Shown: positions 2,514-52,057 of the stretch, piece after piece
Position numbering within the stretch: position 1 is the first letter of the stretch
Layout: each line of letters opens with the position of its first letter
Assembly: GCA_031288715.1 (NCBI GenBank)
Contig: JAITQW010000005.1
Location: 1-52,134 of the forward strand
Length of the DNA: 52,134 bases
Source of the DNA: Lactobacillales bacterium
Lineage (GTDB): Bacteria > Bacillota > Bacilli > Lactobacillales > Streptococcaceae
Direction of reading: 5' to 3'
Position numbers and translations under genes: made by a program
Notes under the pieces: generated by a model
Databases searched by the model: none
What the model was told of the DNA's origin: nothing
What the model saw: only the letters and a program-made list of their open reading frames with translations

Positions 2514-2671
2514 GCCTTGCGTTCTTGTGATTTCTAAGAATCTATTAACAATTTAGCAGATAATTTATTTTCATCCTTTTTTTGGAAAATTTTTTCATGG
2601 TACAATTATTTATAGTTTTGCAAAAGGTTTATTATATATTTGTATGTGGAGGAAGAAAGAAGGGTAAACTG

Positions 2672-3712
2672 ATGGTATACAAAGCTAAGAGCGATGTAAT
2701 TGATAGTAAGAAGTTGAAGGAAGTCGGAAGTTTATCTGTGGAAGCTTGCCTTGTTAAAGAGGCGCGTGATCGAGAGCTGCGGTATATTATGGAAGGGCGA
2801 GATAGCCGATTATTGTTGATCATTGGTCCGTGTTCTGCGCACGATGAAGAAGCTGTGATGGAGTATGCACATCGTTTGGCTAAGTTACAAGAGGAAGTAA
2901 AAGGAAAAATGTTTTTGGTTATGCGTGTTTATACTAATAAGCCGCGAACGAATGGGGATGGTTATAAAGGATTAATGCATCAACCTAATTTAGAAGAAGC
3001 AGTGGATCCATTGCTTGGAATTTCGGCTACTAGAAAGTTACATGCACGTGTAATAACAGAGACAAGACTTACGACGGCAGATGAGATGCTTTATCCAGAG
3101 AATTTAATTTTTGTTGATGATTTAGTCAGTTATCATGCGGTGGGCGCTCGTTCTGTGGAAGATCAACAACATCGTTTTGTGGCTAGTGGAATTGATGCAC
3201 CAACAGGCTTGAAAAACCCTACAAGCGGGAATCTTAATATTTTGTTTCATGCTTTGCATGCGGTGCAGAAGCCACAAGATTTTTTGTATAACTTTCAGGA
3301 GGTTGTAACACTTGGAAATCCTTGGGCGCATGTAATTTTGCGTGGAGCGTCAAATGAATATGGAGAAAATCAACCAAATTATTATTATGAAGATTTGTTG
3401 AAGGCAGTTGAATTTTACGAGAAAAAAAACTTTTTGAATCCGTGTATTCTTGTTGATACGAATCATGATAATTCTGGTAAGAAATACTTGGATCAGGTCC
3501 GAATTGTGCGCCAAACTTTGATTAATCGAAGGTGGAATGAGAAATTGTGGAAACATGTACGCGGTTTTATGATTGAGAGCTTTTTGGTTGATGGTCGGCA
3601 AGAGGTAGATGGTAAGGTATTCGGACAGTCGATTACCGATCCTTGTTTAGGCTGGGAGAAAACGGAAGCCTTGGTTCGTGAGATTTTTCAAGAACATGAA
3701 GTGTGCAATTGA
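2672..3712 (+). CDS. aroF: 3-deoxy-7-phosphoheptulonate (DAHP) synthase, AroG type, copy 1
   Basis: Catalyses condensation of phosphoenolpyruvate and erythrose 4-phosphate, the first step of the shikimate pathway to aromatic amino acids, in the cytoplasm. Family motifs are in order: LLIIGPCSAHDEEAV near residue 47, RVYTNKPRTNGDGYKG near 88, GARSVEDQQHR, VDTNHDNSGKK and SITDPCLGWEKTE near the C-terminus. The start at 2672 gives 346 residues and has AAGAAGGG eight bases upstream; the frame is open further upstream without a good site. A paralogue with clearly related sequence lies at 16527-17555. This copy has Arg where the other has Gly in the ITET(G/R)LTTADE motif, which may mean relaxed selection or different feedback behaviour. 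It stands alone; the downstream gene is on the other strand. Confidence 0.92.
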   Translation: MVYKAKSDVIDSKKLKEVGSLSVEACLVKEARDRELRYIMEGRDSRLLLIIGPCSAHDEEAVMEYAHRLAKLQEEVKGKMFLVMRVYTNKPRTNGDGYKGLMHQPNLEEAVDPLLGISATRKLHARVITETRLTTADEMLYPENLIFVDDLVSYHAVGARSVEDQQHRFVASGIDAPTGLKNPTSGNLNILFHALHAVQKPQDFLYNFQEVVTLGNPWAHVILRGASNEYGENQPNYYYEDLLKAVEFYEKKNFLNPCILVDTNHDNSGKKYLDQVRIVRQTLINRRWNEKLWKHVRGFMIESFLVDGRQEVDGKVFGQSITDPCLGWEKTEALVREIFQEHEVCN

Positions 3713-9713: not shown

Positions 9714-11849
9714 ATGAAAAAAGTTGTATCCGCGTGTTTGTTATTTTTTGTTTTTTGTTCCACTTTCTTGCTTATCAATGTTTATCAAACTAAAGATAGA
9801 ATAAGAATCGAATCAATTGAAATGAACCCAGGTGGTTCGTTTTATTTCTATGTTAAGCATTCGAATCGCACAATTCCTGAAGAGTTGACTTTTTTATCAA
9901 GGTTGTCAAAAGAAGAAAAAATCTCGATTTTTAAGACAGACTATACAAAGAACGATACTGTGATTAAATCAGTGGTTTTTAATAAAGAAAGCTTTCCTTT
10001 TCAACAATTTAATCTTCCAGACAAGGATTTATTTAAAAATAGCAGGAATATCTATGCTAGTTTTGATACTAAAAGTAAGCATCAGGTAGGGAGGATCCCT
10101 ACTTTTGTTAAAAGAGATAAAGTTTTTTTACAATTATTGGAAAATTACTACTTAGATTCAAGCAAATCTTTAAATGGAACTTACTCGGTAGTCTCGACGC
10201 AAACGATCAATAAAGAGAAGATTGTAAAAAAACTTAGCATTTTTTTTTCGGTAAGTGAAAAAGAGTTATTAACTACTTCTGGGGATCATGCAGTTGCTTT
10301 GATAAACAGGTATGTAATGATTTTTGCTCTAATTATAATTCTTGTCTTTTTGGTACTAATGATTGTTACGATTTACGCTCCGTTGATGTCTATTAAAAGT
10401 ATTGGTGTTAAGAAATTAAATGGCATAAGTAATTTTGCTATTTTGGGGGAATTTATCAAAAAAAATGTGATTTTGCTAATTGGTAGTTGTTTTTTAGTTG
10501 ATGTTGGAATTCTTGCCTATTTTCCTTATCGACCGAAAAATTTTATGCTGATATTAATTTTAGTGCAATTATTAATCTTTATGATCTTTTTTATATCTAA
10601 TTGTTTTGTTTATCTAGTTATAAGAAAAGTGACTATTGGTAAGTTATTAAAACAGTTTTTGAATTTTAAATGTGGTAATGCTGCTTGCTTTGTTGTTAAA
10701 TTTTTACTAACGTTGTCCTCCACTTTATTATTATTTCAGATTTCAGGCGAAATCGATGAGTTAGTTAAACAATATCGACTAAGTGAAGCTTGGAATAGTA
10801 ATGGTGAATTGTTAACTGTTGAAGTTGCTTATGTATCTGAAGAGGAGGGAGGTTTACAAAATTTTCACCTCAATGAGCTGAAGGCTGCTGAGAAATGTGC
10901 ACGACTTTTTCTCGATTTGGATAAGCAAACAAAGGCAATGTATGTTTGCAGTAGTGTGATAGATCCAACTAGAAATTTAGGAATGGGAGGAAAAAACCAA
11001 GAGAAAAATATTTTCAAACCCGGAGAAAAATATGAGGTGATGTCCATTAATCATCATTTTTTAAAGACTTTACCTATTAAACACAAGTTGGCCAAGGATA
11101 ATATTCGCGAATTTTTAGTTCCAAACTCTTTGCGTCAGAATGAAGCAAAGATGAGATATTTTTGTCAGCGTCTTCTTTTTAATGATCTAGGTTCAAAAGA
11201 TCAAGAAACAACGATAATTGAACACTTACCGGTGCGCTTGTTTTACTACGATGATCAACATTTTTCTGTTTTTCCGTATAGTTCTGAGATTAAGGGGAAT
11301 TTTACGAAACCTATTTTAAAGTTGTTCAACGAAGAAAATATGCTTTTTTGTGAGCGAACTTATTGTAGTGTAACAGGTGAAAATTGTCCCATGAAGGTTA
11401 TGAACTCTAAGCAAAATCGCGAAAAAATCCAAAAATTGATGAAAAAAAATGATGTACATGTTAAATTTTCAACAGTGAATGCAATTCTTGGAGATCAAAT
11501 TAGGGGTTGTAAAGAAGCAATAGGGATTGTGATCATGATTTTATTTTTTATTGTTATATTAAATATTTTTGCTTTGATTTTTTTACTAATTTGTATTATT
11601 CGGAGTAAGAAGAAAAAGCTTTCTGTTGATCGATTACTGGGAGTGAAAATGTTTGATCGTTACCGAGTGGAGTTTTGTCTGATTTTTGGTTCTTATTTCA
11701 TCCAGATTTTGATGATTTGTTTATTAGGGAAGTCGCTGCTGGTGATGCCGATAGCTCTGATTGTTATTTTGATCGAATCGATTACAATTTTTTTAACCAT
11801 TATTCGAGAAGAAAAAAAGAACTTAGTATCTTTACTTAAAGGAGAATGA
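9714..11849 (+). CDS. Bacteriocin-associated 7-TM integral membrane protein (lactococcin 972 type)
   Basis: A 711-residue membrane protein. There is an N-terminal TM helix (residues 5-22), an extracellular region up to about 195, then hydrophobic helices near 198-220, 245-265, 275-300 and 318-343. A second large extracellular part (about 350-600) follows, and the last helices lie near 604-628 and 650-695. Size and layout match the bact_immun_7tm/DUF1430 proteins always found beside lactococcin-972-type peptides, thought to act in export and/or self-protection with the ABC ATPase. The next gene begins at the stop codon, so the two are translationally coupled. A homologous but broken gene is at 50422. 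Confidence 0.8.
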   Translation: MKKVVSACLLFFVFCSTFLLINVYQTKDRIRIESIEMNPGGSFYFYVKHSNRTIPEELTFLSRLSKEEKISIFKTDYTKNDTVIKSVVFNKESFPFQQFNLPDKDLFKNSRNIYASFDTKSKHQVGRIPTFVKRDKVFLQLLENYYLDSSKSLNGTYSVVSTQTINKEKIVKKLSIFFSVSEKELLTTSGDHAVALINRYVMIFALIIILVFLVLMIVTIYAPLMSIKSIGVKKLNGISNFAILGEFIKKNVILLIGSCFLVDVGILAYFPYRPKNFMLILILVQLLIFMIFFISNCFVYLVIRKVTIGKLLKQFLNFKCGNAACFVVKFLLTLSSTLLLFQISGEIDELVKQYRLSEAWNSNGELLTVEVAYVSEEEGGLQNFHLNELKAAEKCARLFLDLDKQTKAMYVCSSVIDPTRNLGMGGKNQEKNIFKPGEKYEVMSINHHFLKTLPIKHKLAKDNIREFLVPNSLRQNEAKMRYFCQRLLFNDLGSKDQETTIIEHLPVRLFYYDDQHFSVFPYSSEIKGNFTKPILKLFNEENMLFCERTYCSVTGENCPMKVMNSKQNREKIQKLMKKNDVHVKFSTVNAILGDQIRGCKEAIGIVIMILFFIVILNIFALIFLLICIIRSKKKKLSVDRLLGVKMFDRYRVEFCLIFGSYFIQILMICLLGKSLLVMPIALIVILIESITIFLTIIREEKKNLVSLLKGE

Positions 11850-11851
11850 GA

Positions 11852-12487
11852 ATGATAAAATTAACAGATTTGGTGAAAAAATTTGGCAATAAGCAAGTGT
11901 TGGATCAGTTTAATTTGAGTATTAAAGTTGGCGAAATGATTGCCTTGGTTGGGGAGAGTGGTTCAGGGAAATCTACTTTGTTAAATATTTTGGGTTTAAT
12001 TGAAGATTTTGATTCAGGGGAGTATTTATTTTTTGGGGAGAAAAACATCAAAGCAAATACAAAAAAAGCTTCAAAAAATATTCGCGAAAAAATAAGCTAC
12101 TTGTTTCAAAATTTTGCTTTGATTGAGACGGACACAGTGGAAGAAAATTTACAAGTTGCATTAAAATATAAAAAGGTTAATAAAAAGGAGAAACAAAGGC
12201 TAATTTCATCTGCTTTGGAGAAAGTTGGCTTAAAAGGATACGAAAAAAGAAGGGTACATGAGCTCTCTGGTGGAGAGCAACAAAGAGTAGCCATTGCCAG
12301 GGTGCTGATTAAGCCAAGTGAAATTATTTTAGCAGACGAGCCTACCGGTTCTCTTGATTCCAAAAATCGGGATGAGGTTTTAAATTTGTTAAAAAAAATG
12401 AACCGAGAAGGAAAAACTATTGTCATCGTGACACATGATCCAGAGGTTTCTAAAGTTTGTTCTAGAGTTGTAGAATTAAATGCTTGA
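11852..12487 (+). CDS. ABC transporter ATPase, lactococcin-972 export group
   Basis: A 211-residue nucleotide-binding subunit with Walker A GESGSGKST near residue 36, Q-loop LFQNFAL, signature LSGGEQQRVAIARVL, Walker B ILADEPTGSLDS and H-loop VTHD. It belongs to the LolD/MacB-like exporter class and should energise the 7-TM protein encoded immediately upstream. An ATG at 11846 overlaps the preceding stop, but it lies only one base after AAAGGAG. The ATG at 11852 has a seven-base gap and is preferred. Confidence 0.88.
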   Translation: MIKLTDLVKKFGNKQVLDQFNLSIKVGEMIALVGESGSGKSTLLNILGLIEDFDSGEYLFFGEKNIKANTKKASKNIREKISYLFQNFALIETDTVEENLQVALKYKKVNKKEKQRLISSALEKVGLKGYEKRRVHELSGGEQQRVAIARVLIKPSEIILADEPTGSLDSKNRDEVLNLLKKMNREGKTIVIVTHDPEVSKVCSRVVELNA

Positions 12488-16108: not shown

Positions 16109-16526
16109 AATAAGTTCCTCAAAAACAGTATTTTTTTATCACTTTTTTTATTCTTTTAAATATATCTCAATCGCTTTGTAAAAGAAAGGTGAGACAAAAA
16201 TTTTTATTTAAATATTAAATTCGGAAAGTAGCTTTATCCCAAAAATCTAATACCATAAAAAGCAGCAAAACACTAAATATTCTAATTAAGTTGAATCAGT
16301 ATAGTTTAATAACCCTGAATGGAAGTGGGGAAGATTTCTTTATTTTCCGAATTGAAATTTTAAATAAAGTTGTTTGACCTGGAATTACTTGCTTGTTATC
16401 ATAAAAAATAAACTTTTTCATAAAAATATGATACAGAAAGAACACGCATTGACTTACAGAGTGGCGCTTTAATTGATTGATGTGTAAATTTTTAAGATTT
16501 AAAGCTAGATGGAGTGGGGAAGAGAA
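16109..16526. other. Divergent intergenic region, no gene seen
   Basis: About 420 AT-rich bases separate the amino acid importer operon and the second DAHP synthase gene. Promoters for both must be here, but none is distinctive enough to place. There is no T-box, no repeat copy and no open frame that I would support. Confidence 0.4.
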
Positions 16527-17555
16527 ATGGTATTCAAACAGTTAAGTGAAACAATTGATTTAGTGGAAATAAAGAAGATAGGAGCATTGTCCACAGAGGC
16601 TAAATCAAATAAGAAAAAGCGCGATTTGGAATTAGAAAAAATTATTTCTGGTATTGATGAGAGAATCCTTTTGTTGATTGGACCTTGTTCGGCACATGAT
16701 GAAGAGGCAGTGTTGGAATATACTAAGCGTCTTGCAAAACTTCAAGATGAAGTAGCAGATAAAGTTTTTATGGTGCCACGAGTATATACGAATAAGCCTA
16801 GGACTAATGGAGATGGTTATAAAGGTATGTTGCATCAACCTGATTTGACTTCAGGGTCCAATCTTTTAAATGGAATATCGGCTATTCGCAAACTTCATAG
16901 CCGAGTAATTACTGAAACTGGACTAACAACGGCAGATGAGATGTTATATCCAGAAAATTTAGATTTGGTTGATGATTTAGTTTCTTATATTGCGATAGGA
17001 GCTCGCTCTGTAGAGGATCAACAACATCGCTTTGTAGCTTCTGGTATTGATGTGCCGACGGGATTGAAGAATCCAACAAGCGGAAATCTTACTATTATGT
17101 TTAATGCATTGTATGCTGCTCAACAGAAACAAGAATTTTTGTTTAATTCACAACATGTAGAATCTTCTTCTAATCCGTTGGCACACGTAATTTTGCGTGG
17201 TTCGCTTAATGAATATGGAGATAATCGACCTAATTATTATTACGAAGATTTGTTAAAAACAATTTCCATGTATGAAGGAAATGATTTTAAAAATCCGTTT
17301 ATTGTAGTAGACACAAACCATGATAATTCTGGCAAGAAATATTTGGAACAAATGCGTATTGTTAAGCAAACATTGACTAATCGTCATTGGAGTGAGAAGG
17401 TGGCTCGTTTTGTTCGTGGATTTATGATTGAAAGTTTTTTGGTGGATGGTAGACAAAACTCAGATGGAAAGGTGTTCGGTCAGTCTATTACTGATCCGTG
17501 TCTTGGTTGGGAGAAGACAGAAGAGCTGGTAAATTATATTTATGAGAATGTATAA
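16527..17555 (+). CDS. aroF: DAHP synthase, AroG type, copy 2
   Basis: Second enzyme for the entry step of aromatic amino acid synthesis, 342 residues. Motifs: LLIGPCSAHDEEAV, RVYTNKPRTNGDGYKG, ITETGLTTADEMLYPENL, GARSVEDQQHRFVASG, VDTNHDNSGKKYLEQ, SITDPCLGWEKTEEL. It is collinear with the product of 2672-3712 along the whole length and differs mostly in the N-terminal 40 residues and the middle loop (170-210), parts that usually carry allosteric control. The first copy may therefore answer to a different aromatic amino acid. The ATG at 16527 follows GGGGAAGA; a longer in-frame reading from 16509 has no better site. Confidence 0.93.
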   Translation: MVFKQLSETIDLVEIKKIGALSTEAKSNKKKRDLELEKIISGIDERILLLIGPCSAHDEEAVLEYTKRLAKLQDEVADKVFMVPRVYTNKPRTNGDGYKGMLHQPDLTSGSNLLNGISAIRKLHSRVITETGLTTADEMLYPENLDLVDDLVSYIAIGARSVEDQQHRFVASGIDVPTGLKNPTSGNLTIMFNALYAAQQKQEFLFNSQHVESSSNPLAHVILRGSLNEYGDNRPNYYYEDLLKTISMYEGNDFKNPFIVVDTNHDNSGKKYLEQMRIVKQTLTNRHWSEKVARFVRGFMIESFLVDGRQNSDGKVFGQSITDPCLGWEKTEELVNYIYENV

Positions 17556-35037: not shown

Positions 35038-36387
35038 ATGGCACATATAAAATTTGATTATTCAAAAACGTCTTCTTTTGTAGGGGAACATGAGCTTAGA
35101 TTTATGCAATCACAGGTAAGTGTAGCTGATGAATTGTTGCGTAAGGGAAAAGGTGCAGGCGCTGATTTTTTAGGTTGGCTGGATCTCCCTGTTAACTATG
35201 ATAAGGGAGAATTTTCAAGGATTAAAAGATCGGCAACAAAAATTCAAAAGGATTCGGAAGTTTTGATTGTGATTGGAATCGGTGGTTCTTATTTAGGAGC
35301 TCGAGCAGCCATTGATTTTTTAAACAATCATTTTTATAATTTGCAAACTCAGAATGAACGTAAAGCACCACAAATTTTGTATGCAGGTAATTCGATTTCT
35401 TCGACTTATTTGTATGAGTTGGTTGAATACGTGAAAAATAAAGATTTTTCAGTAAATGTAATTTCTAAATCAGGAACAACTACAGAGCCTGCCATTGCAT
35501 TTCGTGTTTTAAAGGATTTATTGATTCAAAAATATGGAAAGGAAGAAGCAAACAAGCGGATTTATGCCACAACTGATAAAGTTAAAGGTGCAGTTAAGGT
35601 TCAAGCGGATGCTCAAGACTGGGAAACATTTGTGATCCCTGATGATGTTGGTGGACGTTTTTCTGTTTTGACAGCGGTGGGGTTACTACCGATTGCTGTA
35701 AGTAGTGTAGATATTGATGCACTGATGAAAGGGGCAGCTGATGCTCGAAGTGAGTTTTCTTCGGACAAAATAGAAGAGAACTTAGCATATCAGTATGCAG
35801 CTATACGCAATATTTTGTATCGCAAAGGAAAAACTACAGAGTTATTAATCAATTATGAGCCTTCATTACAGTATTTTTCTGAGTGGTGGAAACAATTAGC
35901 TGGAGAGAGTGAAGGTAAAGATCAGAAGGGTATTTATCCGTCTTCTGCCAATTTCTCAACTGATTTACATTCATTAGGTCAATATATTCAAGAAGGTTCA
36001 CGAATCATGTTTGAAACTGTGATTAAGGTTGAAAATCCTAGACATAACGTTACAATTCCAAAAGAGGTAGAAGACTTGGATGGACTTGGGTATTTGGAAG
36101 GAAGAGATGTTGATTTTGTAAATACCAAAGCGTATGAAGGAGTATTGCTTGCCCATACTGATGGAAATGTTCCAAATATGGTCGTGACAATTCCACGTCA
36201 AGATGAGTATACACTTGGATATTTGATTTATTTCTTCGAATTAGCGATTAGTTTATCTGGATATTTGAATGGAATTAATCCGTTTGATCAACCTGGAGTG
36301 GAAGCGTATAAGAAAAATATGTTTGCTTTGTTAGGCAAACATGGCTTTGAAGATTTGGGGAAGGAATTAAACACACGACTATCATAA
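35038..36387 (+). CDS. pgi: Glucose-6-phosphate isomerase
   Basis: Interconverts glucose 6-phosphate and fructose 6-phosphate in glycolysis. At 449 residues it has the length of the short Gram-positive type. Motifs: [18 protein letters not shown] near residue 79, [18 protein letters not shown] near 142, [19 protein letters not shown] near 202, and the catalytic His in [14 protein letters not shown] near 307. AGGAGG lies before the ATG. The 215 bases before it contain an AGCAGGTCCTTAATG string like the ends of the dispersed repeat but no gene. A perfect terminator follows. Confidence 0.96.
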
Positions 36388-36395
36388 ATTTTGAA

Positions 36396-36430
36396 AGAGA
36401 TGCCTTGTTTTGACGAGGCATCTCTCTTTA
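36396..36430 (+). terminator. Terminator after pgi
   Basis: AGAGATGCCT (36396-36405) pairs perfectly with AGGCATCTCT (36416-36425), followed by CTTTA. It insulates pgi from the bacteriocin promoter 11 bases downstream. Confidence 0.75.
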
Positions 36431-36440
36431 CAACTTGCCC

Positions 36441-36469
36441 TTGACAATCAATATATGTATATATATTAT
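36441..36469 (+). promoter_or_regulatory. Consensus promoter of the circular bacteriocin locus
   Basis: TTGACA (36441-36446), exactly 17 bases, TATTAT (36464-36469). It lies 57 bases ahead of the precursor gene, directly after the pgi terminator. No regulator-binding repeat is evident nearby, so expression may be constitutive. Confidence 0.8.
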
Positions 36470-36525
36470 GCATTTGTCAGTGTTTTTTGCATAATAATTT
36501 ATTTTACATAGTAAGGAAGATGCTT

Positions 36526-36735
36526 ATGTTTGACGTTATTGGTTTACTTGGAGTTAATGAAGGAATTGCAACTACGGTTGTTAACATAGTAATGGGTGCA
36601 AGTACAACGATAGCTGTTGTAGCAGGAATTTTAGCAGTACTTACCGGTGGATTGACAGCTATTCTTGATATAGGGGTCACTGTTTTTATTCAAACAGTAA
36701 AAAAACTGGGACGTAAAAAGGCGATTCCTTATTAA
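36526..36735 (+). CDS. Circular bacteriocin precursor, circularin A/uberolysin family
   Basis: A 69-residue precursor. It aligns without gaps over the first 22 residues with my recollection of pre-circularin A (M-F-x-V-x-G-x-L-G-V, then A-T-T-(I/V)-V-N-(V/I)) and ends like it (A-I-x-Y). By analogy the leader is only MFD and the core is 66 residues from Val4 to Tyr69, joined head to tail. The core is hydrophobic with helical segments (TTVVNIVMGASTTIAVVAGI) and a basic patch VKKLGRKK before the C-terminal AIPY. Such peptides form pores in Gram-positive membranes. AAGGAAG is six bases before this ATG; the ATG at 36520 is too close to it. The following genes encode the membrane and ATPase parts. 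Confidence 0.87.
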   Translation: MFDVIGLLGVNEGIATTVVNIVMGASTTIAVVAGILAVLTGGLTAILDIGVTVFIQTVKKLGRKKAIPY

Positions 36736-36764
36736 TTGAAGTTTCCCATTAAGCCTCGCGCTTA

Positions 36765-36950
36765 GAGCCTGTTCTTCTAGGTTATCAAATGAAAGAAATT
36801 TTGAAAACAAAATTTTTTACAAAGTGCGAAAAATTGCCGAAAATTTCGCTATTAGGCAGTTCGTTAACAATGTTTTTTGTGAATGATTTTTAATCATGAA
36901 CAATGTTTTTTGTGAGCAATTTTTAATCGTGAAGCAGGTTCTTAACGCGT
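36765..36950. repeat. Dispersed intergenic repeat inside the circular bacteriocin operon
   Basis: Starts with AGAGCCTGTTCTTCTAGG and ends with GCAGGTTCTTAACGCG, and contains TTTCGCTATTAGGCAGTTCG. Two direct repeats of about 33 bp (from 36867 and 36899) are the reverse complement of the TGTTTC-GATTAAAAAT-CACA module of 12691 and 22428. It separates the precursor gene from the next gene and could form a processing or termination structure. Confidence 0.6.
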
Positions 36951-37022
36951 TGGAATAAAAAAATTAGTTAAATTATAAAGTTTATTTTTCATTTTATAAT
37001 TTTATTAAGGAAGAGCATTCAC

Positions 37023-39140
37023 ATGAATCATCTGTTGTATCTATACATAATAGAAAGAGAAAGAAAGAAATTGAATGTTACTTTTTCTTTTCTTCGTTTG
37101 AAAGAGCGGACAATTTTTCTCTTTATTTTAAAAATTATTCCTATTATTTATCTTATTTTCTTCTATCGAATACTATTAGTGCTAGTTCCAGCTCAAAAAT
37201 TGTTCACTTCAATATTTGCTCTCGTTCTTTGTGCAAATCTTTTTCAATTAACTAATGACATCAAGCGAATTGAGTTGGAAAAGGGTAATTATCGATTTTT
37301 GCCTATCAAGGAAAAAGATCTTTATCGTAAGTTAGGTGTTATAAATTATCTTTCTCAGATTTTTTTTTCGTTTCCTTATTTTTTAGTGGGATTTCTATTG
37401 CAATATTTTGCTGGACAATCTGTGCTACTTCTTCTACAAGCAGTAGGTTGGATTTTCCTTTCTATCACTTGTTATTACTTTTTTAGATTGGCTTTTAAAC
37501 GATCATTGCTTGGAAGTTTTATCAGTAATTTTTTATGGAAAACGGCATTTTTATTTCTTGGTTTTGAGGGAACAAGCTTTTTATTGAAATTAATCATGAT
37601 TTCTCGAACCACTTATTTTGCACAAAAAAATTTTAATTTACATTTTATCTTATCTCTACAAGAAAATATTGGTAAATATTTTAATAAGATAAGTATTGGC
37701 GAAAAAGTTGAAAAAAATATTCATATCTTACTAAGCTACCAATTATTTATTTTGGTGTTTTTGCTGTGCTTGACATTTATGTGTTTTTTAATTTTTATAT
37801 CCGGCAATAAGTTGAAGGAAAGTCAGTTTAAAGGGTATTTTCCCAAACAACTTCTTTCTAATACAAAGGTGAATTTTCAATTTCTTAATCAAAAAAATTT
37901 CGAAGAAGAAAATGAGCAGTTGGAGATGAATGGATTAAATCTGCTGTTTTCGCCAGAATTATTTTTGGCTATCGGCGTTATTTTTGCTGTTCGCAACAGT
38001 ATTTATAATTCATTAATTTGGCTAACTGTGTTGTTTTTTTGGCTTTTTGTGATCCATAAAGGAGTTATTTCAACAGTTAAAGGGGCTTTTAAAAATACTT
38101 TTCAATATGAATATGATTTACCCAAGAGAGCATTTTTTATCCTTTATGATGTTGATGTAGTTGAATTTTGCTTTTCAAAAATTAATTTATTTGCAAAAGT
38201 GACCTTATTTTATGCACTAGTTAATGATTTAATTTTCATAACAATCTCTTTCTTCATTCATGGAAGTGCCAGTTTATGGATAATTCCACTTTTTGTTATT
38301 TTTCTGGGATTTCACAAACATCTATGTGCTTTGGCATTGTACAATGAAACTGAGACATTTAAAATCTTAATTCGTAAGCGAGTGTTCGCAGGTTTAGAAA
38401 GAATTCGAGAAATTCCTGGTATTGAAATTTTTCAAGCTACCAATAACATTTTCAGTAAATTGTTCGTTCAGTTGGGAATCTATATTCTTTTATTCTTTTC
38501 ATTTATTCCTTTGCTGACTCAAAAAATGTGGAGTGTTGTTTTGTTTGCGGAAATATTTTTATTATTAGCATCTATAAAAATTGTTAAAATTAAAAATAGA
38601 GGAGATCGCAAAGCACGAGTGAGTGATGGAATCATTTGGAAAAGAGTGAGAGATTCCGCTCTTATTAGTCTTTTAATTTTCGTTTTTGCATTAATTCTGG
38701 GAGTATTTTTAGGGAATTATATTCCATTTAAGCTAAAAATCAACCATTTTCAAATTGCTTCGCTTTTCCTTCATAATTTTGTCCAAGGAATTCGAATGAT
38801 TCTTCTAGGAAATTTAACTTTTGGGGTAACGAACTCTTTGCTGTTAGGAATGACCGGTACCGCTATTGGGGCAAGCACACGCTCTATTTATTTGAACTAC
38901 GGATTTCAACCAATTTTAACTGCTGTTTTTCCGCACGCGTTTTTTGAGATTGTAGGAATGATATGCATGAATATATTGGGATATTTTTCTATTTTTTATC
39001 TATACTTTCTTAAGAAATCCGATCATAAGGAAAAATTTAATGCAAAAGGAATGTTAATAATTGGTAGTATTTTGTTTATTGCAGGAACTACGTTGTTGCT
39101 TATTGCAGCAATTATCGAAGTTAAGTTAAGTCACACATGA
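37023..39140 (+). CDS. Circular bacteriocin maturation/export membrane protein, CirB-like fused to SpoIIM/DUF95 domain
   Basis: A 705-residue, very hydrophobic protein. The first 530 residues contain about ten TM helices in the pattern of ABC-2-like permease or CirB-type proteins, with soluble loops near 75-105, 195-240, 265-315 and 440-470. From about 535 the sequence becomes a SpoIIM/DUF95 domain: ALISLLIFVFALILGVFLGN, SLFLHNFVQGIRMILLGNLT, GMTGTAIGASTRS, FPHAFFEIVGM. It ends with two more helices (residues about 670-700). In circularin, carnocyclin and AS-48 type loci the large membrane protein and the DUF95 protein are separate genes needed for maturation or secretion. Their joining here is inferred. 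The gene lies after the precursor and before the ATPase. Confidence 0.72.
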   Translation: MNHLLYLYIIERERKKLNVTFSFLRLKERTIFLFILKIIPIIYLIFFYRILLVLVPAQKLFTSIFALVLCANLFQLTNDIKRIELEKGNYRFLPIKEKDLYRKLGVINYLSQIFFSFPYFLVGFLLQYFAGQSVLLLLQAVGWIFLSITCYYFFRLAFKRSLLGSFISNFLWKTAFLFLGFEGTSFLLKLIMISRTTYFAQKNFNLHFILSLQENIGKYFNKISIGEKVEKNIHILLSYQLFILVFLLCLTFMCFLIFISGNKLKESQFKGYFPKQLLSNTKVNFQFLNQKNFEEENEQLEMNGLNLLFSPELFLAIGVIFAVRNSIYNSLIWLTVLFFWLFVIHKGVISTVKGAFKNTFQYEYDLPKRAFFILYDVDVVEFCFSKINLFAKVTLFYALVNDLIFITISFFIHGSASLWIIPLFVIFLGFHKHLCALALYNETETFKILIRKRVFAGLERIREIPGIEIFQATNNIFSKLFVQLGIYILLFFSFIPLLTQKMWSVVLFAEIFLLLASIKIVKIKNRGDRKARVSDGIIWKRVRDSALISLLIFVFALILGVFLGNYIPFKLKINHFQIASLFLHNFVQGIRMILLGNLTFGVTNSLLLGMTGTAIGASTRSIYLNYGFQPILTAVFPHAFFEIVGMICMNILGYFSIFYLYFLKKSDHKEKFNAKGMLIIGSILFIAGTTLLLIAAIIEVKLSHT

Positions 39141-39236
39141 AAGTTTTTTGTAGTAATTTTTTGCACAAATCATAGATAAGTTTTAATAAGGGGCGACTTG
39201 TTTGTTGTAGATATTATATAGTGATAAAGAAATCTA

Positions 39237-39258
39237 AATAACTAATTTATTAGTTATT
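39237..39258 (+). other. Palindrome before the bacteriocin ATPase gene
   Basis: AATAACTAA and TTAGTTATT form a perfect 9-bp stem with a 4-base loop, followed by TTAAAATTT. It is AT-only, 27 bases before the ATPase start. It may modulate expression or mRNA stability within the operon; the 144-base gap has no open frame long enough for an immunity peptide. Confidence 0.35.
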
Positions 39259-39284
39259 TTAAAATTTAGATAGAAGGGCAAAAT

Positions 39285-39953
39285 ATGAAATTGCTAAAAA
39301 TAAATAAATTAGATTTTTCTTACGTTGCAGAGGAAACTTTGCTCTATATTCAGGATTTGTCTTTCCCTTCAAAAGCAATTGTAAAATTAGAGGGAAAGAA
39401 TGGAACTGGAAAAACGACCTTTTTGAATTTATTGAGTGATTGTTTAGAGATTTTTCCGAAAGAATGTAATTTTTTATTTGATAACAATGAATATAAAAAG
39501 TTTTCTACGTTACGTAAGCAAAGAGTGTTTGCAAACGACAAGCCATATTTTTTCGAAAATTTGACACTAAAAGAACAAATCTCATTTTTTATTTATATAC
39601 TAAATCTAAAAACTTGTTTTATTCAGCGTGCTAAAGAATATTGCGAACGCTTAGAATTGCTGAAATATTCAAATAGAAAAATCAAAGATTTATCGCTGGG
39701 GACGAAGCAAAAACTTTCTTTGGCATGTTTGTTAGCCATGGAAGTGCCATTTTACTTTTTAGATGAACCACTAAATTCTTTGGATTATCAGAGTAAAAAA
39801 ATCATAAAAGATATTATTGTTCAAAAATTTCATCATCAACCTGCTTGCTTGTTTATCATTGTTTCTCATGAAGAAGATGAACGCGCATTGTACACTCATA
39901 GTTTGAGCACAAGTGACTGGAAGTTAAAGATGCTTTCTAATAGCTTTCTTTAA
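39285..39953 (+). CDS. ABC ATPase of the circular bacteriocin locus (CirD-like)
   Basis: A 222-residue nucleotide-binding subunit. Walker A is LEGKNGTGKTT near residue 36, the signature is the degenerate LSLGTKQKLSLA near 137, Walker B is FYFLDEPLNSLD near 158 and the H-loop VSHEE near 194. It follows the 705-residue membrane protein and should form the transporter that exports the circular peptide or protects the producer. AGAAGGGC lies before the ATG. The divergent signature motif separates it from the two MacB/LolD-type ATPases in the window. Confidence 0.8.
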   Translation: MKLLKINKLDFSYVAEETLLYIQDLSFPSKAIVKLEGKNGTGKTTFLNLLSDCLEIFPKECNFLFDNNEYKKFSTLRKQRVFANDKPYFFENLTLKEQISFFIYILNLKTCFIQRAKEYCERLELLKYSNRKIKDLSLGTKQKLSLACLLAMEVPFYFLDEPLNSLDYQSKKIIKDIIVQKFHHQPACLFIIVSHEEDERALYTHSLSTSDWKLKMLSNSFL

Positions 39954-40062
39954 AAGCATAATTTTCCAAATTGATAAAATTGCAGCTTAACGAACAAAAA
40001 TGTATATTTTTTCGGATAAATATTGGAATCATTACTAATCTTTTAGATTTTAATTTAACCTT

Positions 40063-40090
40063 TGCAAGTTGTAATGTAAATCCGTTCACT
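40063..40090. mobile_element. Decayed IS30-type terminal repeat
   Basis: GCAAGTTGTAATGTAAATCC followed by GTTCACT matches the left terminal repeat at 145-170 and 52058-52083 with about five differences, in the same orientation. No transposase follows: the tRNA gene begins 108 bases later. It is a scar of an old insertion just after the bacteriocin ATPase gene. Confidence 0.5.
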
Positions 40091-40197
40091 TTGGGAATCG
40101 ATTGACAAAGTGGAGCACTAAATTTTGGAATGAAGCAACCAATTGATTGAAATCGGTATGATCATTCGCTATACTAATGGCTGTGACATATGATTTT

Positions 40198-40500
40198 GGT
40201 TCGGTAGCTCAGCTGGATAGAGCAATCGCCTTTAGGCAAAATAGGAGCCTTTATAGGTAAAAGGAATCTATAAAGTGGATAGCACTGTATCGGTGAAACC
40301 TGTAAAATGGCAATACCGAGGAAACCATTTGTAGCTTGGCGAAGAAGTTATTTGGTAGTTGAGCGAGGGATCCGTAGAGACTATACGTGCTACGTCTGAG
40401 ATGACGAAGATATAGTCCAGACCACAAAACGATAATCGGCAGTGAAAACTGTAGTGGTAAGCTAAGCGATCGGTCGGGGGTTCAAATCCCTCCCGAATCA
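40198..40500 (+). tRNA. tRNA-Arg (TCT), interrupted by a group I intron
   Basis: The 5' exon (40198-40232) and 3' exon (40462-40500) join to a 74-nt tRNA. The acceptor GGTTCGG pairs with CCGAATC, and the D-arm is GCTC-GAGC. The anticodon stem ATCGC/GCGAT has loop CTTCTAA (anticodon TCT), and the T-arm is GGGGG-TTCAAAT-CCCTC. The discriminator is A and CCA is not encoded. The boundary T40232/T40233 and G40461/C40462 is the one that gives a seven-base loop, a U at the 5' splice site and a terminal G in the intron. The intron lies between the first and second anticodon bases. A terminator follows at 40545. Confidence 0.9.
40233..40461 (+). ncRNA. Group I intron (229 nt) in tRNA-Arg(UCU)
   Basis: The self-splicing core can be read. 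P2 is TTTATAG/CTATAAA. P3 is TAGCAC/GTGCTA (6 bp, perfect). P4 is CGGT/ACCG, enclosing a short P5 and followed by P6 (CCA/TGG). P7 is ACTATA/TATAGT within GTAGAGACTATACG and AAGATATAGTCC. P8 is CGTC/GACG, and P9 is CAGT-GAAA-ACTG with a GNRA tetraloop. The intron ends in G. The P4-P7 sequence resembles the small tRNA introns of the IC3 subgroup (Azoarcus tRNA-Ile, cyanobacterial tRNA-Leu). I could not settle P1: GCC/GGC pairings exist around the 5' splice site, but a clean G-U pair is not obvious. No homing endonuclease is encoded. Confidence 0.88.
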
Positions 40501-50421: not shown

Positions 50422-52057
50422 ATGAAATGGCGCGTTAGCGTATTAAGTTTTATCGTTATTATATTTTCGATACTAGGTATGGGAGTAATAGGAGAGCTCG
50501 GTGATTATATTACATATCCTGCACAATCTGGGATAAATTTAACAAAATATGAAGGAAATCTTAAGAAAGAGCAAATTTATGATAAATTAGAAAAAATTTC
50601 AAAAGAGAATAATCTAATTTTGTTTAAACCAATTCTGCAGCCTGATGGTTCGGAAAAAGCTTTTATTTTTGGTGATGCTCAAAAATATTTGAAAGATAGT
50701 ATGTATTCTGATGATAAAAAAATATTGGCTGATACTGAGATAACCGGAATGTATTATATTAATAGAGGTCTTAGTAAAGATCTAAAAAAAGAATTAAAAA
50801 TGATGGGATTTCAGTATAAAGGAGGAGATATTGGTTGGTATATGTCCCCGATGGCATTTTTCTTTGGTAAAAATGTGCGATCGATCGCGGTTTGGACGTT
50901 AATGTTTGTATTTGCCTCTCTTTTATTTGCTGTTAAAATGATGTACTTAAAAACAGCTATGGTGCGAAGAAGCTTAGGGATCTTTCGTGGCGCTATTTTG
51001 AAAGAGACCATGATTGATGTTGGAATTCTGATTTTAGATTCTATTTTTATGATTGGCGTGTTTTCATTATGGCAAGGTAGTATGCATAGCGTTTTTGTGA
51101 AGTCATTTAGCTTGTTGGTTAGTGTTACACTGTTATGCTTAGTGATTATTTCCTTAATTACAAACGGATTATTTGCACTAAATATTCGCTTGATGTCAGC
51201 AACTACAGTTCTTAAGAATAAAAAGTCACAAGGACTTATTTCGTACATCTGGCTATTTGGTATTTTAATTTCTGTATTTATTTTTGAAATAACAGCTAGT
51301 GAAATTATTCATATCTCTAAGGAATTAGCTAAAGATGCTGGTACATTACAGAATTGGAATGTTGCAAAAGATTTGGCCACTATTGAATGGTTTGATGTAG
51401 AACGAGAACATACAGAAGGTCATCAGATTGATGGTCAGTTTATGATTGAAAATGGTGCTAAAAATAAGAATTTTATACAGTCTTTTGGGAAAGAAGATTG
51501 GCTTTATTCAAAAGCATCAGCTCTTTGGGATGCTCACGGGCGCATGGAGAGACAGTTAGCAGATCCTTATTACGTGCAAAGGTTAAATGAATTCGGTATT
51601 GATGCAAAAGATGTAAAATTAGCAGAATACATTCAATATGTGAATCCTGGGATGATAGAAAAAAATAAAAAAATATACCCAAACAATAACTATGGTAAAT
51701 TATCGGCAACAGAAAAGTCTTAACCGGTTGTTTTGTATGTTCCTAAAAAATACAAGCAGTATGCAAATAAAATAAAAAATTTAATAAATTTTGAATGGAC
51801 TTATGAGTCATCAATTGATATTTCTCAAGTGCCTACAGTAATCGTACCAAATAATCAAAAAAGCTTTTTATTTAATTATAAAGAGGGCGAGGGCGAGTTG
51901 TTAACCAAGCAGACCGAACAGGATAAAATTTTAGTTCAGCTTAATTTTTCAGAATTTCCTGATGATAGTGTGTTAACAAGGCATTTTAATGACATTTCTT
52001 TTTCTGCTTTATTTAATCAAAAGCTTGTCAAACAAAACTTAAAAAGTGCAAATCTTG
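50422..52057 (+). pseudogene. Bacteriocin-associated 7-TM protein gene, broken by a stop and an IS insertion
   Basis: The frame starts at 50422 with GGAGG upstream and runs to a TAA at 51721-51723. The same phase stays open to the IS30-type end at 52058, so one nonsense codon and one insertion damage it. Residues 1-433 hold an N-terminal TM helix, an extracellular part, four or five TM helices (about 150-170, 195-225, 235-258, 270-292) and the start of the second extracellular domain (ATIEWFDVEREHTEGHQIDG). The segment after the stop has YVPKKYKQYANKIK and PTVIVPNNQKSFLFNYKEG. Layout matches the intact 711-residue protein at 9714, whose last 110 residues (final helices) are missing here. A partner ATPase would lie beyond the window. 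Confidence 0.8.

Follow-up and report, generated by a model that had tools for sequence, protein, structure and literature searches.

A compact, very probably circularin A-type bacteriocin cluster in a small-genome Streptococcaceae bacterium with eleven SpoIIM-type loci

The gene clusters of circular bacteriocins share a minimum of a precursor, a SpoIIM (DUF95) protein and a transporter (PMC8659200, section 4), and the cyclising step is described as not established in PMC8659200 and PMC6131525. Circularin A of Clostridium beijerinckii, which gave the family its name, has a leader of three residues, a core of 69 and five genes, cirABCDE, according to PMC6131525. The nearest annotated relative of the locus described here lies on a plasmid of Anoxybacillus amylolyticus (NZ_CP015440.1); its precursor, WP_044730624.1, is annotated as a circular bacteriocin and is uncharacterised, and the genes follow in the order precursor, B-type membrane protein, SpoIIM and ATP-binding cassette (ABC) transporter, with no immunity gene annotated. 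Here we describe positions 36441-39953 of a 52,134-nucleotide stretch of DNA (contig JAITQW010000005.1, positions 1 to 52,134; the window) from the draft genome of an uncultured member of the Streptococcaceae. In our judgement this locus is very probably a compact circular bacteriocin cluster of group i, in the circularin A branch, made up of a promoter, a precursor gene, a B-type protein fused to SpoIIM, and an ABC ATPase.

Family membership is well supported by the precursor. The original prediction had proposed a 69-residue precursor and had made the circular bacteriocin reading depend on a match to models of the family and on a homologous precursor beside DUF95 genes in another genome; both were found. 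The precursor scores 52.1 bits with TIGR03651 (cut-off 30.7; E 6.2e-14, far above chance) and 37.3 bits with PF09221 (cut-off 23.6). The Anoxybacillus precursor is 47% identical to it over 96% coverage (E 4e-10; 34 of 69 positions), and that of a second locus in the same genome, on contig C32 (L009:9355-9585), is identical at 32 of 69. Directly downstream on the same strand are a SpoIIM domain, as part of a fusion, and the ABC ATPase. As an undescribed member of the family the peptide stands within the sets searched, where relatives of the window precursor came to one plasmid record, no phage record and no IMG/VR locus.

Aligned with what we take to be the circularin A sequence, the precursor shares 28 of 69 aligned positions. 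These identities occur all along its length, and the difference of three residues in length lies close to the C-terminus (KLGRK---KAIPY) and not in the middle, where the original prediction had put the new sequence. The C32 precursor is presumably closer still to circularin A, sharing 47 identical positions with the same assumed sequence; the C32 locus differs from the window locus in that its B gene lies in at least two open reading frames (ORFs) and its SpoIIM is separate. Like circularin A, the window peptide would have a three-residue leader, a C-terminal Tyr and a cationic hydrophobic core, although this core has 66 residues, ends in AIPY rather than AIAY, and is encoded beside a B protein and SpoIIM that are fused. 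With the leader taken as MFD, the core has an isoelectric point (pI) of 9.82, a net charge of +3, a grand average of hydropathy of 1.21, two aromatic residues, a predicted cyclic monoisotopic mass of 6611.884 and a predicted average mass of 6615.95, the linear core being heavier by 18.011 Da; its pI exceeds 9, the value that marks group i in PMC6131525. Enterocin AS-48 (PDB 1e68) is the best match among solved structures by sequence, a weak one (E 0.097); its similarity is far lower, and it differs further in its 35-residue leader, as given in PMC6131525, and in its larger number of genes.

The multi-spanning membrane protein expected at this locus is present and has 13 hydrophobic segments on a simple scale. 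Its match to PF01944 is limited to residues 549-701, and a profile comparison of its first 545 residues gives a match to the 539-residue Anoxybacillus B protein, with residues 297-504 aligned (hhalign probability 84.8, E 6.6e-6); three control proteins of the window and 13 further B-type sequences of the genus, among them both parts of the divided C32 gene, did not exceed a probability of 1.1. The aligned B part, taken together with the SpoIIM domain, indicates that one chain here unites what two genes encode in Anoxybacillus, whose cluster has four genes, with the B and SpoIIM genes overlapping by 4 nucleotides (nt). The Anoxybacillus cluster also differs in being plasmid-borne and in a core that ends in Trp. 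Within the genome of the window, the SpoIIM open frame spans 722 residues at this locus vs 152-195 at the ten others. The original prediction mentions neither the fusion nor the missing immunity gene nor the further loci of the genome. We considered whether the fusion is unprecedented and rejected this: SpoIIM domains are common within membrane proteins of circular clusters and are at times separate genes, and AS-48-type clusters are reported with SpoIIM in long membrane proteins (PMC7132975, section 8), so the fusion is a variant and not a new principle.

All ORFs of the three genes that lie between pgi and a tRNA-Arg gene are intact (Table 1). The ABC ATPase, likewise anticipated in the original prediction, retains its motifs: Walker A (GKNGTGKT), LSLGT, FYFLDE and the H-loop. 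The consensus promoter named there is also found, with 11 of 12 bases; when the 138-nt interval separating pgi from the precursor gene was dinucleotide-shuffled 2000 times, 18 of the shuffled sequences held a site at least as good, and the two strands of the whole window hold nine sites of this quality. In-frame alternatives for the precursor start are ATG at 36520 and TTG at 36487. An Rfam scan of 36380-37100 returned a single match, at chance level.

Table 1. Features of the window locus and its flanks (positions in the window)
Feature	Position	Strand	Evidence or remark
pgi	35038-36387		upstream flank
GC-rich inverted repeat, probably the pgi terminator	36396-36425		just upstream of the locus, behind pgi; arms of 13 nt, 92% complementary, 4-nt spacer
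Putative sigma-70-type promoter	36441-36469	+	TTGACA-17-TATTAT; 11/12 consensus bases
Putative ribosome binding site	36513-36519	+	AAGGAAG; 6 nt before ATG 36526
Circular bacteriocin precursor, 69 aa	36526-36735	+	TIGR03651 and PF09221
Predicted core, 66 aa (V...Y), leader MFD	36535-36732	+	alignment with Anoxybacillus, contig C32 and the presumed circularin A sequence
Two 33-nt direct repeats	36861-36926	+	within the 287 nt that separate the precursor gene from the membrane protein gene; contain AACAATGTTTTTTGTGA; second copy 85% identical
B-type membrane protein fused to DUF95/SpoIIM, 705 aa	37023-39140	+	PF01944; hhalign to Anoxybacillus B protein
DUF95/SpoIIM domain of the fusion protein	38667-39125	+	PF01944, 40.7 bits in genome scan, 35.9 in protein scan (cut-off 26.9)
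ABC transporter ATPase, 222 aa	39285-39953	+	PF00005, 64.7 bits
tRNA-Arg gene	40198-40499		downstream flank

By analogy with the known family, the promoter behind pgi would drive the precursor gene, then the B-SpoIIM fusion and then the ATPase. The leader MFD would most likely be removed and Val1 of the core most likely joined to Tyr66, and the fusion protein, with the ATPase as its motor, would take part in maturation and export the peptide. The cationic hydrophobic ring may then insert into the membranes of competing Gram-positive bacteria and permeabilise them. When the DUF95 protein of leucocyclicin Q is removed, circularised peptide is found inside the cell, as cited in section 9 of PMC7132975, which argues for a role of SpoIIM in export rather than in ring closure; PMC6131525 (section 5) terms the circularisation role presumed, without direct evidence. 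Because we found no dedicated immunity gene, we suggest that self-protection may be provided by the B-SpoIIM/ABC machinery or by another cluster of the genome.

Several observations weigh against this picture. No ORF of at least 25 residues resembling a small cationic membrane immunity protein occurs in the three gaps of the locus (36736-37022, 39141-39284 and 39954-40197), and the genes next to it are pgi and a tRNA; a dedicated immunity protein is usual and not required, none having been identified in three of ten AS-48-type clusters (PMC7132975). Three genes are also fewer than the five of circularin A and the five to seven of the minimal clusters reviewed in PMC6131525 (section 5). The proline before the C-terminal Tyr (AIPY) differs from both relatives aligned, and AlphaFold, run on the lone precursor sequence without an alignment and uninformative in that form, gave one long helix (predicted TM-score 0.39) vs the expected multi-helix globule. 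Finally, the four other sampled genomes of the genus (G001-G004; the genome of the window is G000) hold no full-length orthologue of the 705-residue protein; what matches there is the SpoIIM domain, at 22-25%, and in G003 a short fragment as well. A contig search of other genomes with the protein likewise found no relative; the same search with B proteins of another type (C21a) matched two members of the genus, Nc350_bin42 and Cc175_bin59. Their names are built like codes for termite samples (Nc150 stands for Nasutitermes corniger in PMC7024585, where four Streptococcaceae metagenome-assembled genomes also appear), so that the habitat may be the termite gut, for which PMC9137090, PMC11481507 and PMC9978240 gave no confirmation.

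The G003 fragment, on contig C26 (L039:1507-1581), is a stretch of 25 residues that matches residues 287-311 of the B part with 72% identity; it lies outside ORFs of at least 90 codons, on the far side of a probable ribosome recycling factor gene, and is perhaps a remnant of a lost locus of the window type.

The lack of an immunity ORF would also suit a relic or silent cluster, descended from a circular bacteriocin operon that lost its immunity gene, fused two genes and no longer makes an active peptide. Damage of this kind occurs elsewhere in the genome, where the C16b precursor and the C42 B gene are frameshifted and the C6 ATPase has an in-frame stop. At the window locus, however, the three ORFs, the ATPase motifs, the ribosome site and the promoter are all intact, and in the absence of selection stop codons should have built up over several kilobases; we therefore regard a relic as unlikely. 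More doubtful still, and in our view improbable, is a linear hydrophobic bacteriocin of the leaderless type, exported without ring closure. The leader is indeed very short, and according to PMC8659200 (section 9) circular bacteriocins have no identified cyclising enzyme, so that ring closure cannot be proved from the gene content; yet the best models are those of circular families, and SpoIIM is termed class-defining for circular bacteriocins in PMC13289728. That the precursor is no bacteriocin at all but a short hydrophobic protein that happens to adjoin an ABC transporter is hardly credible. SpoIIM and ABC genes are indeed common (SpoIIM is matched in 276 of 398 Bacilli genomes), but recognition of the precursor is specific, PF09221 giving no match in 14 control genomes, and the family models together with the annotated Anoxybacillus cluster, which has the same gene set, already contradict this reading.

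The window locus is one of many. In the 1.27-Mb draft G000, PF01944 detects 11 loci, all over the cut-off (C48 only together with its frame neighbours), and PF09221 detects five, in six rows: C48, C16 (two), C32 and the window. At the 11 loci, five precursors are recognised by the models, one of them frameshifted, and five are unrecognised candidates; the remaining locus, C6, is cut by the contig end. The frameshifted precursor, C16b, is the second copy on C16; it is split over two frames and has an intact homologue in G002. The unrecognised candidates, none over the family cut-off, lie upstream of SpoIIM on the same strand at C21a, C21b, C42, C29 and C46. A filter on hydrophobicity, C-terminal charge, Gly and Ala content and last residue, with thresholds set after the candidates had been seen, passes seven of 225 ORFs of 55-125 residues from ten loci. 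All seven are SpoIIM-adjacent precursors, namely four recognised by the models and those of C21a, C29 and C42; C21b and C46 fail, and we consider the C46 candidate the weakest. Two further genomes retain the C21a precursor, with 64% identity between G000 and G003 and 75% between G003 and G001 and ratios of non-synonymous to synonymous divergence (dN/dS) of 0.34 and 0.25. Viral contigs searched with three circularin-type precursors, and plasmids searched with precursors of the C16b type (G002 copy) and the C21a type, yielded none.

An ABC ATPase adjoins SpoIIM at each locus, as judged outside the window by reading the sequences without a model. At least three loci are damaged, in the C16b precursor, the C42 B gene and the C6 ATPase, and the C32 B gene is also split. 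Among related clusters in the genus, dN/dS is 0.12-0.57 in 19 comparisons of cluster genes, indicating purifying selection. Pairwise identity among the eleven SpoIIM domains is 15-31%, apart from C21b and C42 at 43%, so that the loci are not recent duplicates. Some 0.55 kb past the C21b cluster, at L070:11737-14871 on contig C21, we observed a locus with a lactococcin 972-type precursor (TIGR01653, 39.7 bits; cut-off 32.1), a 733-residue membrane protein and an ABC ATPase.

Contamination was considered as a source of so many loci and rejected, the reported contamination being 0.02%. The marker genes mnmG (C21) and ftsH (C48) each occur in G000 as a single full-length copy, 77-81% identical to those of the other genomes that have them, and for rpoB (C16), pgm (C29), pgi (C35) and lacI (C6) the divergence from other members resembles that of hemN; the check covered the contigs just named. 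In G003, contigs C11 and C16 carry two hemN genes, one close to that of G001 (88%) and the other not, so that this bin may be mixed.

Each of the five genomes sampled from the genus carries loci of this kind. PF09221 matches are found in 5/5 genus genomes vs 0/53 others in the family and order, and across the class in 22 of 398 genomes, a draw that contains G000 and one more genome of the same family, with at most three rows in any genome but G000. For PF01944, matches over the cut-off in 147 family genomes number 11 in G000, 2-5 in the other four genus members and 0-2 in the remaining 142. Across the class, at E 1e-6, G000 has eight (8 of its 11 candidates scored) and the maximum elsewhere is five, a count that does not by itself count bacteriocins because sporulating Bacilli carry ordinary SpoIIM. 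According to PMC7132975 (sections 4 and 8), strains have at most two independent circular clusters, with at most three structural genes in one cluster, and one to three precursor genes per cluster are given in PMC8534725 (section 5). Among open-licence PMC papers we found nothing on point for multi-cluster genomes or termite circular bacteriocins.

Some clusters appear to move between species of the genus. Between the uberolysin-type cluster on C16 and its copy in G002, synonymous divergence (dS) is 0.26-0.35, and for hemN, rpoB and lacI of the same pair it is 1.77, 2.63 and 1.91; for the C42-type cluster in G003 and G004 it is 0.13-0.24, with 0.96-1.17 for hemN. Cluster dS so far below housekeeping dS in both pairs points to transfer inside the genus. 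Three of the 15 hemN pairs (G001-G002, G001-G004 and G002-G004) were left out because the alignment overran the gene. For the C21a type in G003 and G001 there is no sign of transfer, its dS (0.15-0.55) being near that of their hemN (0.27). Certain genes lie near different clusters in different places: pgi (window; G003), pgm (C29; G001), fol genes (C16a; G003) and glyQS (G002; G001). We do not claim insertion hot spots from these, since side and distance differ and, by rough arithmetic, about one such coincidence within 5 kb is expected for G000.

Elsewhere in the window, the anticodon loop of the flanking tRNA-Arg(UCU) gene is split by a 229-nt group I intron, as seen with ARAGORN run with and without introns; the intron scores 31.6 bits with Rfam RF00028 (E 2.1e-6), where the gathering score is 50, and the same split gene occurs in another gene neighbourhood in G002 (L089:1392-1696). 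Positions 9714-12487 encode a bacteriocin-associated integral membrane protein (TIGR01654, 165.9 bits, under the cut-off of 189.35) with an ABC ATPase, and a shorter ORF near the window end (50422-51723) shows a weak TIGR01654 relation (27 bits, far under the cut-off). Two similar ORFs (2582-3712 and 16509-17555) look by eye like 3-deoxy-7-phosphoheptulonate synthases.

The window peptide is in itself one more candidate circular bacteriocin, and the unexpected part is the concentration of such loci in the genome. On balance we lean slightly towards the view that this small-genome genus of Streptococcaceae carries an exchangeable arsenal of circular bacteriocins. The 1.27 Mb of G000 hold eleven SpoIIM-type loci, roughly half of them with precursors missed by the models, and on this view clusters pass between species faster than chromosomal sequence diverges. 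The window locus would be the most compact of these, its membrane parts for maturation and export fused and its self-protection presumably built in or shared. With three genes, a single B-SpoIIM chain and no immunity gene, such a cluster would offer a minimal setting for the questions of ring closure and of producer protection, and the fused protein makes the choice between export and circularisation as the role of SpoIIM testable in one gene. The genome also supplies precursor types missed by current models, and the number of loci, together with their presence throughout the sampled genus, suggests that these bacteria use ring-shaped peptides as a main weapon.

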